Assembly (NCBI GenBank): GCA_019414645.1
Contig: DXLP01000002.1
Span: 1-64,000 of the forward strand
Direction of reading: 5' to 3'
DNA: 64,000 bases
DNA from: Collinsella sp.
Lineage (GTDB): Bacteria > Actinomycetota > Coriobacteriia > Coriobacteriales > Coriobacteriaceae
Positions 48,684 through 64,000 of the stretch are shown piece by piece. Both the position numbers and the translations under genes were made by a program. Each line of letters starts with the position of its first letter. Position 1 is the first letter of the stretch. The notes beneath the pieces are model-generated. The model worked only from the letters and a program-made list of their open reading frames with translations. It ran no database searches and was not told the origin of the DNA.

Positions 48684-48903
48684 GGGAGTAGCACCGGTTG
48701 TTGCCGTAAGGTGATGGCCGGGGGTGCGGGGCAGCTCTCAGGAGTGCGGGCTGCCGTCTGATTGTTTGAGGGTGCCAGATGTAAATAAACAGTGGAGCGG
48801 CTGCAAAAGAGCCTCCTCACTGGGTAAAATCAGATTGTGCCGCGGAACCCGCTCTTCAGCTGGTCACACTTCGGAAGCGCGGGCAACGCAGGTATTATCG
48901 TCT
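48684..48903. other. Gap without gene between zinc-ribbon gene and a terminator
   Basis: I see no supported coding frame and no tRNA fold. The region ends in the strong hairpin at 48904-48932, so something transcribed on the plus strand passes through it, possibly only the zinc-ribbon gene's 3' untranslated region or a small RNA. Confidence 0.35.
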
Positions 48904-48932
48904 AAAGGGCCGGCTGCAACCGGCCCTTTTCT
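48904..48932 (+). terminator. Strong terminator 220 bp after the zinc-ribbon gene
   Basis: AAAGGGCCGG / CCGGCCCTTTT with CTGCAA loop. Confidence 0.85.
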
Positions 48933-61050: not shown

Positions 61051-61078
61051 TTGACGGTAATAATCGATGGCCTAGATG
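61051..61078 (+). promoter_or_regulatory. Candidate promoter of the riboswitch-controlled DUF4430 gene
   Basis: TTGACG (61051-61056), a 16-bp spacer and TAGATG (61073-61078), just upstream of the cobalamin riboswitch. Confidence 0.55.
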
Positions 61079-61245
61079 GTGGTGCGGAGACGCACGAATG
61101 CGCGGTTATCCTGCGCATTTGGGAGAATCGGGGTGCAAGTCCCCAGCTGTACCAGTAACCGTAATTCCTCTTGGCTCGGGATGCTCGCGTCGCAGATCGG
61201 ACGACGTGCCCGAGTCGTTAAGGTTAAGTCGGATCGCCTCCCGTC
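61079..61245 (+). ncRNA. Cobalamin riboswitch
   Basis: The conserved aptamer core is present: GGGAGAATCGGGGTGCAAGT followed by CCCCAGCTGTACCAGTAACC and GTAA (61120-61164), the usual GGTGxAA ... GCTGTxCCxGxAACCGTAA block, and further on AAGTCGGATCGCCTCCCG (61226-61243), matching the AGTCxGGATxxCCTxCC closing strand. A GCGGC/GCCGC hairpin (about 61257-61272) follows. CCTCC in the closing strand can pair with GGAGG at 61290-61294, so ligand-dependent hiding of a ribosome-binding site is possible. The left boundary is approximate. Confidence 0.88.
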
Positions 61246-61389
61246 TTGCATGCGGCTGCGGCTTTTGCCGCCGGTGTGCATAGGGCTCTGGAGGGAAGGG
61301 GGACCCCGATGGGGGAACTCGAGCGCAACATGCGCGATGACGTGGGGCAGTCTCAAGGCAACGCTCCAAGTACAGACAGTAGGAGACAA

Positions 61390-64000
61390 ATGGATATGTT
61401 TGAGGACGAGCGCCAGCGCGTCTCGCATCGCCGTGGCGCGATTGCACGCGGTGTAGCCAAGCGCGGCCTGGTGGCATTCCTGGCCTTCGCGATGGCCTTT
61501 GGCACCACGCCGGCTCAGCTGTGGGCCGAGGGCGCCGAGGGCATTGCCGAGGCTGTGGCTCAGGCTGCGACGCCGGGCGAGGACGCAGCGCTTGCGGGCG
61601 GTACCGCTGAGCAGAGCGGCGCCGAGGTTTCGGATTCCGAGGGCGCGCCTGCAGCTAGTGCAGCCATAGCAGAGGCAGCAACTGGCGGCGAAGGCTCGGC
61701 GACGGGGGAGAGCCCTGCCACGAGCGAGCAGTCTTCGACGGCATCCGCTGGCCAAGCGGGATCTGCCGCCGCGGCTGCCGTTCAGACAGAGAACCCGACA
61801 GAAACCGGCGATGTCGCCAAGAAGCAGGTCGAGGTCTCGTTCTCGATTATCGGCACCGATGCTGACGGCAAGGCTCAGACCTGGGTGGCACCTACGCAGC
61901 TCAAGCTCGACGAGGGCGCGACGGCTGCGGATGCCTTCGTTAAGCTGCAGCAGAAGACGGGCTTTAAAGCGGATTACGAACCGAACACGGCATACGGCTT
62001 CTACCTCAAAAGCATCACATCTCCGAGCGATGGTCGCACGCTTGCCTACGATCCGACGACTTATGCCTTCTGGCAGCTGTTCGTCGACGGCGCGTCTTCC
62101 TCGGTTGGCGCGAGCAGCGTCAAGCTCACCCAGGGGCAGAAGATTGAGTTTGCCTATACGGCTGGTAGCTCGTCCCCTGTCGTTAAGGACCAGGTTGCCG
62201 CAAATGTGACCGTCATTGGTCGCGATGCCCAGGGCAAGACTCAGACTTGGGTCGATAACGCGCAGTATGTGGTGACGTCCGGCTCGAGCGCGCTTGACCT
62301 TACGAAGGTCGCGCTCGAGGCGAATGATATTGACGCCGTTGCTGCGGGCTCCTTCATTCTGAGCCTTAAGTACAACGGTGTTGAGCTGGGTACGCCCCAA
62401 GATTATTCGACCTATTGGCAGCTGTTTATCAACGGCAAGTCGAGTGACTATACGGCGGACAATGTCACCATCCATGCCGGCGATACCGTCACGTGGTTCT
62501 ACGGTGGCTGGGGCGACCAGTTGCCGTCCGATTCTGTCCATGCTTCTGTTCAGGTTCTCGGTAAGGACAAGGACGGCAAGCAGCAGGTTTGGGCTTCGAC
62601 GGGCCAGACGAGTCTCAAGGCGGGCTCTACTGCCAAGGATCTCCTTGAGCAGACCGGCCTTAAGCTCGATGCTAGCGAATCGTCTTGGGGCTGGTTCCTC
62701 AACGGTATTACTTCGCCGTTCGACAGTAAGTCCTATGGCTGGGATGCTGCGACCAAGAGCTATTGGCGCTTCTACGTAAATGGCAAGTTCGCCGACGTTG
62801 GCGCCGGTGCCTACAAGCTCCAGGAGGGTGACGCCGTCACCTTTATGTATGGTGCTGACGCCGATGCCCTCCCCGGTCAGGTGCTTGGATCCGCCGATGT
62901 TATCGGTCCCGATGTCAACGGCAACAATACTCGCTGGGGCTCGGCAAGCAGTGTTTCTTTGCCTGAAGGCTCTACTGCCCAGAACCTTATTGAGACGGTT
63001 CTGAAGGCCAAGGGCGTTACGTACAACGGCTCCCAGAGTGGCGAGTACTGGTTCCTCAATTCCATCAAATCGCCGTTCGAAGACAAGTCGTACGGTTATG
63101 ATGCTGCGACCAATAAATATTGGCACCTGTATATCAATGGAGAGCCCTCCTTACTCTGCGCCAATCAGATTACGCTCAAGAGCGGCGATAAGGTCACGCT
63201 TGCCTATACCACCGACGATTCGCCCATGCCCGATCCCGACAAGGTTGTCGTGGACCCGAGTGCGACGACTCCTGATTGGGATGCCGAGTGGGCCGGCTAC
63301 GGCAACAGTGGCAACGGTTCGACCGTAACGGATGCCAAGACGCCTGCGCAGGCCGCCGGTCTTAAGTGGGCCTTCGATTGGAAGGCCGAGTCTGGTCAGC
63401 AGTATGCCAACTGCAGCGAACCTGTCATCGCCAACGGCTTTGTGTACATCGCGACCGAGAACGAGCTCATCAAGATCGATTCGTCCACGGGCAAAAAGGT
63501 TGCCTCTGCGCCGCTTGCCTCCAAGGTGAGCTATACCTCTCGTCCGATCTATACCAATGGCCTTATCATCGTTCCGCTCAACGGCGGTGCGGTCCAGGCG
63601 ATTACTGCAGACAAGCTGATCTGCAAGTGGCTGACGCCTGGTTTGACGGACTTGACGCAGAGCTCCTGCACCGTCGTTTCGGACGGCGAGTACGTCTATG
63701 TAGGCTCGGTCGATATTTCGTATGACGAGAATTACAACGCGACCTACGGCAACGGCTCCTTTGCGCGCATTAAGATTGCCACGGGCGAAGTTTCTTGGCA
63801 GAACATCGACCCTGCCGAGGGCTATTACTGGACTGGTGCGGCTTTGACGGATAAGTATGCCATCGTTCCTACGAGCGCGGGTACGCTTAAGTGCATTGAT
63901 AAGACGACGGGCGATGTCGTTTCGACCATGAAGCTCGGCGCTGTCGCAAATGCCGATTGCATTGCCGATCCGTCCAATGGTTCGACCTTCTATCAGATGA
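61390..64000 (+). CDS. Large secreted protein: four DUF4430 (transcobalamin-like) repeats and PQQ-type propeller, 3' end outside window
   Basis: At least 870 codons run off the window edge. A long basic signal peptide (VAKRGLVAFLAFAMAFG) and an Ala/Glu/Ser-rich linker lead to four repeats of about 110 residues starting near residues 140, 275, 390 and 500. Each has a (V/I)xG.D.(D/N)GK(T/A)QTW opening, a YWQLFVDG or YWRFYVNG strand and a GDxVTFxYG end, the DUF4430 pattern shared with transcobalamin/intrinsic factor C-domains. A propeller of PQQ-like repeats follows (PVIANGFVYIATENELIKID, GEVSWQNIDP). It sits behind a cobalamin riboswitch, so corrinoid binding at the cell surface is likely. ATG 61390 follows AGGAG; an in-frame ATG at 61309 near AAGGGGG is a possible alternative start. 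Confidence 0.85.
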   Translation, partial: MDMFEDERQRVSHRRGAIARGVAKRGLVAFLAFAMAFGTTPAQLWAEGAEGIAEAVAQAATPGEDAALAGGTAEQSGAEVSDSEGAPAASAAIAEAATGGEGSATGESPATSEQSSTASAGQAGSAAAAAVQTENPTETGDVAKKQVEVSFSIIGTDADGKAQTWVAPTQLKLDEGATAADAFVKLQQKTGFKADYEPNTAYGFYLKSITSPSDGRTLAYDPTTYAFWQLFVDGASSSVGASSVKLTQGQKIEFAYTAGSSSPVVKDQVAANVTVIGRDAQGKTQTWVDNAQYVVTSGSSALDLTKVALEANDIDAVAAGSFILSLKYNGVELGTPQDYSTYWQLFINGKSSDYTADNVTIHAGDTVTWFYGGWGDQLPSDSVHASVQVLGKDKDGKQQVWASTGQTSLKAGSTAKDLLEQTGLKLDASESSWGWFLNGITSPFDSKSYGWDAATKSYWRFYVNGKFADVGAGAYKLQEGDAVTFMYGADADALPGQVLGSADVIGPDVNGNNTRWGSASSVSLPEGSTAQNLIETVLKAKGVTYNGSQSGEYWFLNSIKSPFEDKSYGYDAATNKYWHLYINGEPSLLCANQITLKSGDKVTLAYTTDDSPMPDPDKVVVDPSATTPDWDAEWAGYGNSGNGSTVTDAKTPAQAAGLKWAFDWKAESGQQYANCSEPVIANGFVYIATENELIKIDSSTGKKVASAPLASKVSYTSRPIYTNGLIIVPLNGGAVQAITADKLICKWLTPGLTDLTQSSCTVVSDGEYVYVGSVDISYDENYNATYGNGSFARIKIATGEVSWQNIDPAEGYYWTGAALTDKYAIVPTSAGTLKCIDKTTGDVVSTMKLGAVANADCIADPSNGSTFYQM

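Follow-up and report, generated by a model that had tools for sequence, protein, structure and literature searches.

A cobalamin-class riboswitch and a DUF4430 surface protein in Collinsella: a probable corrinoid capture system with an energy-coupling factor importer

The riboswitch and the surface protein gene

The window analysed here is a stretch of 64,000 nucleotides from Collinsella sp. (assembly GCA_019414645.1, contig DXLP01000002.1, positions 1 to 64,000 of the forward strand). At its 3' end, a cobalamin-class riboswitch aptamer precedes the gene of an exported surface protein with four tandem DUF4430 domains and a propeller. Considered together with related loci, this arrangement probably represents a riboswitch-governed surface system that captures corrinoids and feeds an energy-coupling factor (ECF) importer with a CbrT-like S component. 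What sequence or modelling establishes is the class of the RNA, the domains and their fold, the clustering of genes and the associations across genomes. The features of the locus are the following:

61074..61246, + strand: cobalamin-class riboswitch aptamer (P1, P2, P3, P5, core and B12 box), from an RF01689 match and comparison with relatives
61074-61079 pairing with 61241-61246, + strand: aptamer P1, from comparison with relatives
61082-61095, + strand: aptamer P2 hairpin, assigned by eye
61098-61118, + strand: aptamer P3, assigned by eye
61129-61144, + strand: aptamer P5 hairpin, from covarying pairs in aligned leaders
61146-61164, + strand: aptamer core, from comparison with relatives
61226..61246, + strand: B12-box strand and 3' half of P1, partly complementary to the Shine-Dalgarno region
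61290..61299, + strand: Shine-Dalgarno region GGAGGGAAGG, from the sequence
61309..63999, + strand: exported surface protein, ATG at 61309, first 897 codons without a stop up to the window end, from the reading frame
61465..61515, + strand: hydrophobic core of the N-terminal signal segment, residues 53-69, from a Kyte-Doolittle scan
61828..62178, + strand: DUF4430 repeat 1, from PF14478
62194..62523, + strand: DUF4430 repeat 2, without the aromatic hairpin motif, from PF14478
62536..62871, + strand: DUF4430 repeat 3, the one modelled, from PF14478
62881..63228, + strand: DUF4430 repeat 4, from PF14478
63340..63999, + strand: first part of an eight-bladed BamB/PQQ-type propeller, truncated by the window end, from the model of an ortholog

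The first-pass annotation of this DNA had already read four tandem DUF4430 domains and a PQQ-type propeller. Both hold: PF14478 matches the window protein in four stretches (E 4.9e-46; 155.5 bits against a cut-off of 23.8), and the propeller, which Pfam detects only weakly in the window sequence (PF13570, E 8e-4, under the family cut-off), is clear in the structure model of an ortholog, where the best matches are eight-bladed (designs, BamB, YxaL and PQQ types). The aptamer had been placed from 61079; the element itself stands, and its start moves about five bases upstream, to 61074. TTG at 61246 was considered as the start codon and rejected, as it overlaps the 3' end of the aptamer, whereas a Shine-Dalgarno site precedes the ATG at 61309.

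The best ortholog of the window protein, 97% identical, is encoded by Collinsella sp. 4_8_47FAA (locus L002), and further orthologs occur in strains of C. aerofaciens, in other Collinsella strains and in metagenome-assembled genomes (MAGs) of the genus. In a further protein search, the best 120 of 1666 matches were to near-identical proteins of Collinsella. The L002 ortholog has 1287 amino acids and comprises four DUF4430 domains, the propeller, a List_Bact repeat, a Lys/Asp/Ser-rich stretch and a C-terminal hydrophobic segment; the C-terminal anchor sought beyond the window end is thus read in the ortholog. A second gene begins in L002 at the stop codon of the large gene and encodes a protein of 303 amino acids in which an N-terminal membrane segment is joined through a long low-complexity linker to a single DUF4430 domain. 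This second gene is present in 18 of 20 related loci, the contigs of the remaining two ending before it. The start of the locus is conserved, with the same riboswitch and the same first ~83 residues, while the large protein varies between loci from ~1170 to 2430 amino acids (open frames minus the 21 residues preceding the ATG) and carries four, three, two or one DUF4430 stretches. The longest proteins have aBig_2 domains, together with ZirU matches below the cut-off, and all complete loci keep the second gene as well as the propeller and the hydrophobic tail. Two frames contain stop codons: in the C. aerofaciens-like genome G001, the closest to the window among those compared (33% of sampled words shared), a premature TAG interrupts the large gene at codon 296, between repeats 1 and 2 (G001:C24, L010), and one TAG lies in the large-protein frame of G025.

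The RNA and its linkage to DUF4430 and ECF genes

The relatives surveyed were 58 genomes of the same order, which we take to be Coriobacteriales, 35 of them Collinsella; 14 control genomes were added. At E <= 0.01, RF01689 (AdoCbl-II) matches a single element per genome in 32 of the 35 Collinsella, and a model of our own, built from 28 leaders of the order, does so in 33, about half of the matching Collinsella genomes having contributed sequences to it. RF01689 matches above the cut-off in 8 of the 58 genomes (four Collinsella and four others) and RF00174 (Cobalamin) in 13; the RNAs of G043 and G040:C41 exceed the Rfam cut-off. The leader alignment, comprising 28 of 31 leaders (G040, G054 and L021 excluded; the 5' ends of some rows out of register), contains 28 invariant columns. 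Its RNAalifold consensus consists of P1, P5 and two short helices, in all 15 pairs, of which 7 show, in one or more sequences, a compensatory exchange of both bases; the P5 column pair 71/85 is GC in 21 of the 28 leaders and CG in 7. RNAs of this class also precede cobI-like and cbiD genes in G044 (L063; the identity of CbiD separately confirmed) and btuF-, btuC- and btuD-like genes in G040 (L066; names read from translations), and they serve as natural positive controls for the class assignment. A kissing loop between L5 and L13, which TGCAAG and CTTGCA near 61246 would permit in the window, was rejected because the complement does not lie 3' of L5 in other Collinsella.

The window RNA shares the core, the P5 hairpin and the B12 box with RF01689 and RF00174. 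A covariance search, proposed at the outset as a check, did score it (RF01689, positions 61111-61192, 29.0 bits, E 1.1e-4, in a local scan with the 'evalue' threshold) but fell short of the cut-off of 36.5, and in an Rfam scan of the whole window all cobalamin families, RF01689 and RF00174 included, stayed below their gathering scores, whereas several relatives exceed them. We therefore assign the window RNA to the cobalamin class (Rfam clan CL00101) through its homology to above-cut-off relatives. The low window score, and the RF01689 matches found in 5 of the 14 control genomes (above the cut-off in 1), might suggest a chance resemblance, which would void any claim of regulation. We reject this explanation as extremely improbable given the covariation, the above-cut-off matches in relatives (four Collinsella among them), the single RF01689 element in nearly every Collinsella genome and the class members at cob and btu-like genes. 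The statement that a cobalamin aptamer precedes the gene is accordingly upheld by relatives and by covariation. Pairing between the B12-box strand and the ribosome site gave a negative z in 21 of 23 leaders (mean about -1.4; 8 of the 31 leaders were omitted), and such complementarity is only suggestive as a sign of translational control. In the window leader it is weak (z -0.5), and pairs of B12 box and ribosome site from the same species (-15.9) are barely better than pairs swapped between species (-14.6).

Linkage was counted from every RF01689 and RF00174 row, the PF14478 rows and only 17 of the 52 S-component rows, chosen as possibly near DUF4430. A cobalamin-class RNA (E <= 0.01) lies upstream on the same strand and within 7 kb at 46 of 58 DUF4430 loci, against a chance expectation of ~0.1 loci (hand estimate from 72 RNAs, 58 genomes of ~2.1 Mb and two strands). 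The RNA is above the curated cut-off at 15 of these 46 loci, the rest relying on E <= 0.01, and 24 of the 72 RNAs are located away from DUF4430 loci. An ECF S component is found at most 6 kb from DUF4430 at 16 of the 58 loci, 10 of which also stand behind an RNA. In G036 (L058), the riboswitch is followed by genes for a 1537-amino-acid surface protein, a 246-amino-acid DUF4430 protein, a 308-amino-acid membrane protein, a double ECF ATPase and the S component, with gaps or overlaps of no more than ~10 bases; the ATPase assignment is clear (TIGR04520). In the Collinsella genome G017, a small DUF4430 protein with a lipobox-like LGGC precedes a similar membrane protein and a single frame joining ATPase and S. 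The capture proteins had been proposed to feed a transporter, and these clusters of DUF4430 genes with an ECF importer in relatives support that reading.

The best PDB sequence match of the S protein is 6fnp_A (E 3.4e-9), which is also the sole match at E <= 0.01 of a Collinsella copy (E 1.3e-5). This entry is ECF-CbrT of Lactobacillus delbrueckii, shown by Santos et al. (2018) to carry cobalamin and cobinamide; the main text of that paper has neither 'riboswitch' nor 'DUF4430' (PMC5997447), and the cluster described here adds DUF4430 proteins to such a transporter. Across the 58 genomes, DUF4430 occurs in 51 (50 above the cut-off) and S in 47, with both in 47, DUF4430 only in 4, S only in 0 and neither in 7 (Fisher p 1.1e-6, uncorrected for ancestry). 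Among Collinsella, the S protein was found in 34 of 35 genomes.

A surface protein that is large, variable and rich in repeats, includes a List_Bact repeat and ranges from ~1170 to 2430 amino acids at one locus would also suit a host-facing adhesin under B12 control, for instance one that binds host B12 carriers instead of capturing the vitamin. This role leaves unexplained the loci of G009, G017 and G018, where a single DUF4430 match has an S gene nearby and where, in G017, the protein is the small lipobox-like one, and we regard it as improbable.

The DUF4430 fold, the propeller and earlier predictions

The structure model of DUF4430 repeat 3 has the transcobalamin beta-domain fold, the outcome anticipated for a single repeat, and five of six PDB matches of the DUF4430 profile are transcobalamin-1/2. 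The structure alignments covered the window and the L002-L021 sequences. A simple pattern match places two aromatics at the hairpin positions in repeats 1 and 3. Corrinoid binding by the DUF4430 domains is probable. The multivalent capture proposed in the first-pass annotation is a conjecture, and the aromatic hairpin motif is absent from repeat 2. The ligand could be tested directly on a protein of 112 residues, and since the animal B12 carriers contain the same domain, a bacterial version free of the barrel would bear on the evolution of these carriers.

The propeller accompanies DUF4430 at loci of seven genera, mostly C-terminal to the repeats. Beside these, in G057 (L023:19-1110, - strand) it has a gene of its own, which diverges from the riboswitch-DUF4430 gene. 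The DUF4430 domains might be lids or a scaffold, with the eight-bladed propeller as the main corrinoid binder in the manner of BtuG, or propeller and beta-domain might jointly form a pocket in place of the barrel and beta-domain. Both the recurrence of the propeller across genera and its occurrence as a divergent gene in G057 would fit, as would the precedent of BtuG, a riboswitch-regulated surface propeller that binds B12 in gut Bacteroides (Wexler et al. 2018, PMC6143338). BtuG, however, is seven-bladed according to the text of that paper, whereas the matches here are the eight-bladed BamB, YxaL and PQQ types, and no propeller match was found at the loci of G009, G017 and G018 (one DUF4430 protein with ECF genes), so that the propeller appears dispensable in this kind of system. 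BtuG was absent from the best 60 of 106 propeller matches by profile and from the 50 listed by fold, which does not imply its exclusion. We consider a leading role of the propeller unlikely and retain the DUF4430 domains as the probable binding sites. The BtuG/BtuB system resembles the one proposed here in B12-riboswitch-regulated surface capture with a beta-propeller and differs in being Gram-negative and in having BtuB as its partner; no DUF4430 is named in the available portion of PMC6143338.

The first-pass annotation had presented this as a new kind of corrinoid acquisition system, and here it did not hold. Proteins of this kind in low-GC Gram-positive bacteria, transcobalamin-like and located at the surface, were predicted to scavenge B12 by Burroughs et al. 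(2007, PMC1796856). According to the available portion of that paper, they share with the present proteins the signal peptides, surface anchoring and a second paralogous surface protein; one Clostridium protein is fused to a beta-propeller, and CbiO/CbiQ genes lie in the operon. In contrast to that description, we find a fourfold tandem array, a cobalamin riboswitch, an importer that is unlinked in G001, a strongly variable locus and a CbrT-like S component, and the words 'riboswitch' and 'Collinsella' are absent from the main text of PMC1796856. What is new is therefore the riboswitch link, the fourfold array, the unlinked importer, the variable locus and the fit to the B12 need of Collinsella, and the 2007 prediction gains an independent regulatory argument. 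Searches of open-licence papers, for the most part at the level of listings, brought up neither experimental work on a protein of this type nor a description of one for Collinsella, nor anything for Collinsella with ECF and vitamin B12 or for the locus tag of the solved homolog.

Corrinoid capture and the B12 need of Collinsella

HemB was found in none of the 35 Collinsella genomes searched, which closes the known route to precorrin-2; CbiD is kept in 13 of the 35. A PF02310 protein is present in 30, and among eight chosen genomes searched with a MetH model, G001, G012 and G033 match over ~860-890 positions, below the cut-off, G031 matches with an N-terminal piece only and the four genomes without PF02310 have no match. 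According to the available portion of PMC6593275, C. aerofaciens is listed as B12-requiring despite a complete set of B12 synthesis genes, missing precorrin-2 genes have been suggested for it, and identifying the B12 transport systems of numerous gut genomes is called an open problem. DUF4430 and the S component occur together in 34 of the 35 Collinsella, the exception being G033, which also has no riboswitch. With the absence of HemB, these data offer an answer to the gut B12-transport problem.

The captured ligand could instead be cobinamide, another corrinoid precursor or a metal complex. Burroughs et al. permit a range of ligands for the SLBB proteins (PMC1796856, in the portion available), the solved bacterial homolog 3u7z bears the name of a putative metal-binding protein, CbrT also transports cobinamide (PMC5997447), and the presence of CbiD in some Collinsella and of HemB in none makes late-stage salvage plausible. 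The aptamer class, in turn, senses cobalamin, and a PF02310 protein is common in Collinsella and MetH-like where checked, which together make a ligand other than intact cobalamin rather unlikely. Capture of B12 outside the cell and its transfer to an importer is the most likely role of the protein.

Several findings weigh against this capture system. No RNA was counted at 12 of the 58 DUF4430 loci in the pooled linkage count; among these, the RNA of G021 was detected in later scans and contig ends interrupt the loci of G007 and G011, which leaves nine, six of them adjoining an S gene (G038:C97, G040:C10, G047, G055, G056 and G057:C73). The 308-amino-acid membrane protein of L058, read as EcfT, has no Pfam or NCBIfam family match, and the substrate of S rests on its likeness to CbrT and on context, because Pfam assigns the protein to ECF-ribofla_trS and DUF6580. 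Importer genes were expected in the neighbourhood, and they are present in the clusters of other genomes, but in G001 the three importer genes lie on a different contig from the DUF4430 locus, with no cobalamin RNA detected beside them. Compared with animal transcobalamin, haptocorrin and intrinsic factor, the repeats are only 17-19% identical, there are four beta-domains per chain, and the alpha/alpha barrel that partners the beta-domain in those carriers is absent. The PDB matches of the DUF4430 profile are weak (E 0.01-0.12), the simple pattern match finds one of the two hairpin aromatics in repeat 4 and none in repeat 2, and PF14478 also matches in 2 of the 14 control genomes, Lactococcus lactis and Methanosarcina acetivorans. 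DUF4430 and PF02310 show no association across the 58 genomes (p = 1). G006, G016, G031, G034 and G035 keep the riboswitch, DUF4430 and S without a PF02310 protein. Conversely, CbiD and a MetH-like protein are retained in G033, which has none of the parts of the system and must have another B12 route.

In the capture system that we favour, the large protein would span the wall and bind corrinoids through its DUF4430 domains, the small protein of the second gene would bring the ligand down to the membrane, and an ECF importer with a CbrT-like S component would import it to supply its users, the MetH-like methionine synthase among them. This importer would be encoded elsewhere in C. aerofaciens-like genomes and within the same cluster in other genomes. 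The hand-over from large protein to small protein to S is somewhat more probable than the opposite. The riboswitch would make the output of capture proteins depend on cobalamin inside the cell, and the chances are about even that control is exerted at translation, with the B12-box strand pairing with the ribosome binding site. We assume repression rather than activation by B12, that is, the usual case of a switch that is off with B12; the complementarity of the B12 box to the ribosome site in many leaders makes a switch that turns on with cobalamin conceivable. ECF transporters are generally regarded as working without an extracellular binding protein. In ECF-CbrT, the S component is treated as the binding protein (PMC5997447, in the portion available). 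We raise only tentatively the broader idea of a general class of B12 importers in this order, in which an ECF transporter would be served by a riboswitch-controlled, transcobalamin-like relay from wall to membrane; its capture end in Collinsella would be a four-site array, with the propeller replacing the transcobalamin barrel as the partner face, and the surface part would vary between strains while riboswitch, signal and anchor stay fixed.

Other genes and RNAs were observed in these genomes. A few kilobases from CbiD in G001 (L117:14441-17057), a Peripla_BP_2 protein and a FecCD permease form a possible BtuF/BtuC pair; at E <= 0.1, no cobalamin RNA accompanies them. Two Collinsella MAGs carry a second cobalamin RNA of a different type (RF00174) above the cut-off, G030 (48.2 bits) and G007 (46.8 bits; L119:10021-10147, - strand). 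In G030 (L118:4299-9117), it precedes the gene of a 1558-amino-acid protein with a FIVAR domain and without DUF4430, possibly a further B12-regulated surface protein. The cobalamin-class RNA of G046 (L078:803-2632) precedes a 609-amino-acid protein that has a hydrophobic segment at its C-terminal end and matches no Pfam family above the cut-off. The window showed no nucleotide similarity to a phage DNA collection, and at 48730-48926 on the + strand it contains a Collinsella-1 RNA (RF01700, 219.6 bits), classed by Rfam as an sRNA.

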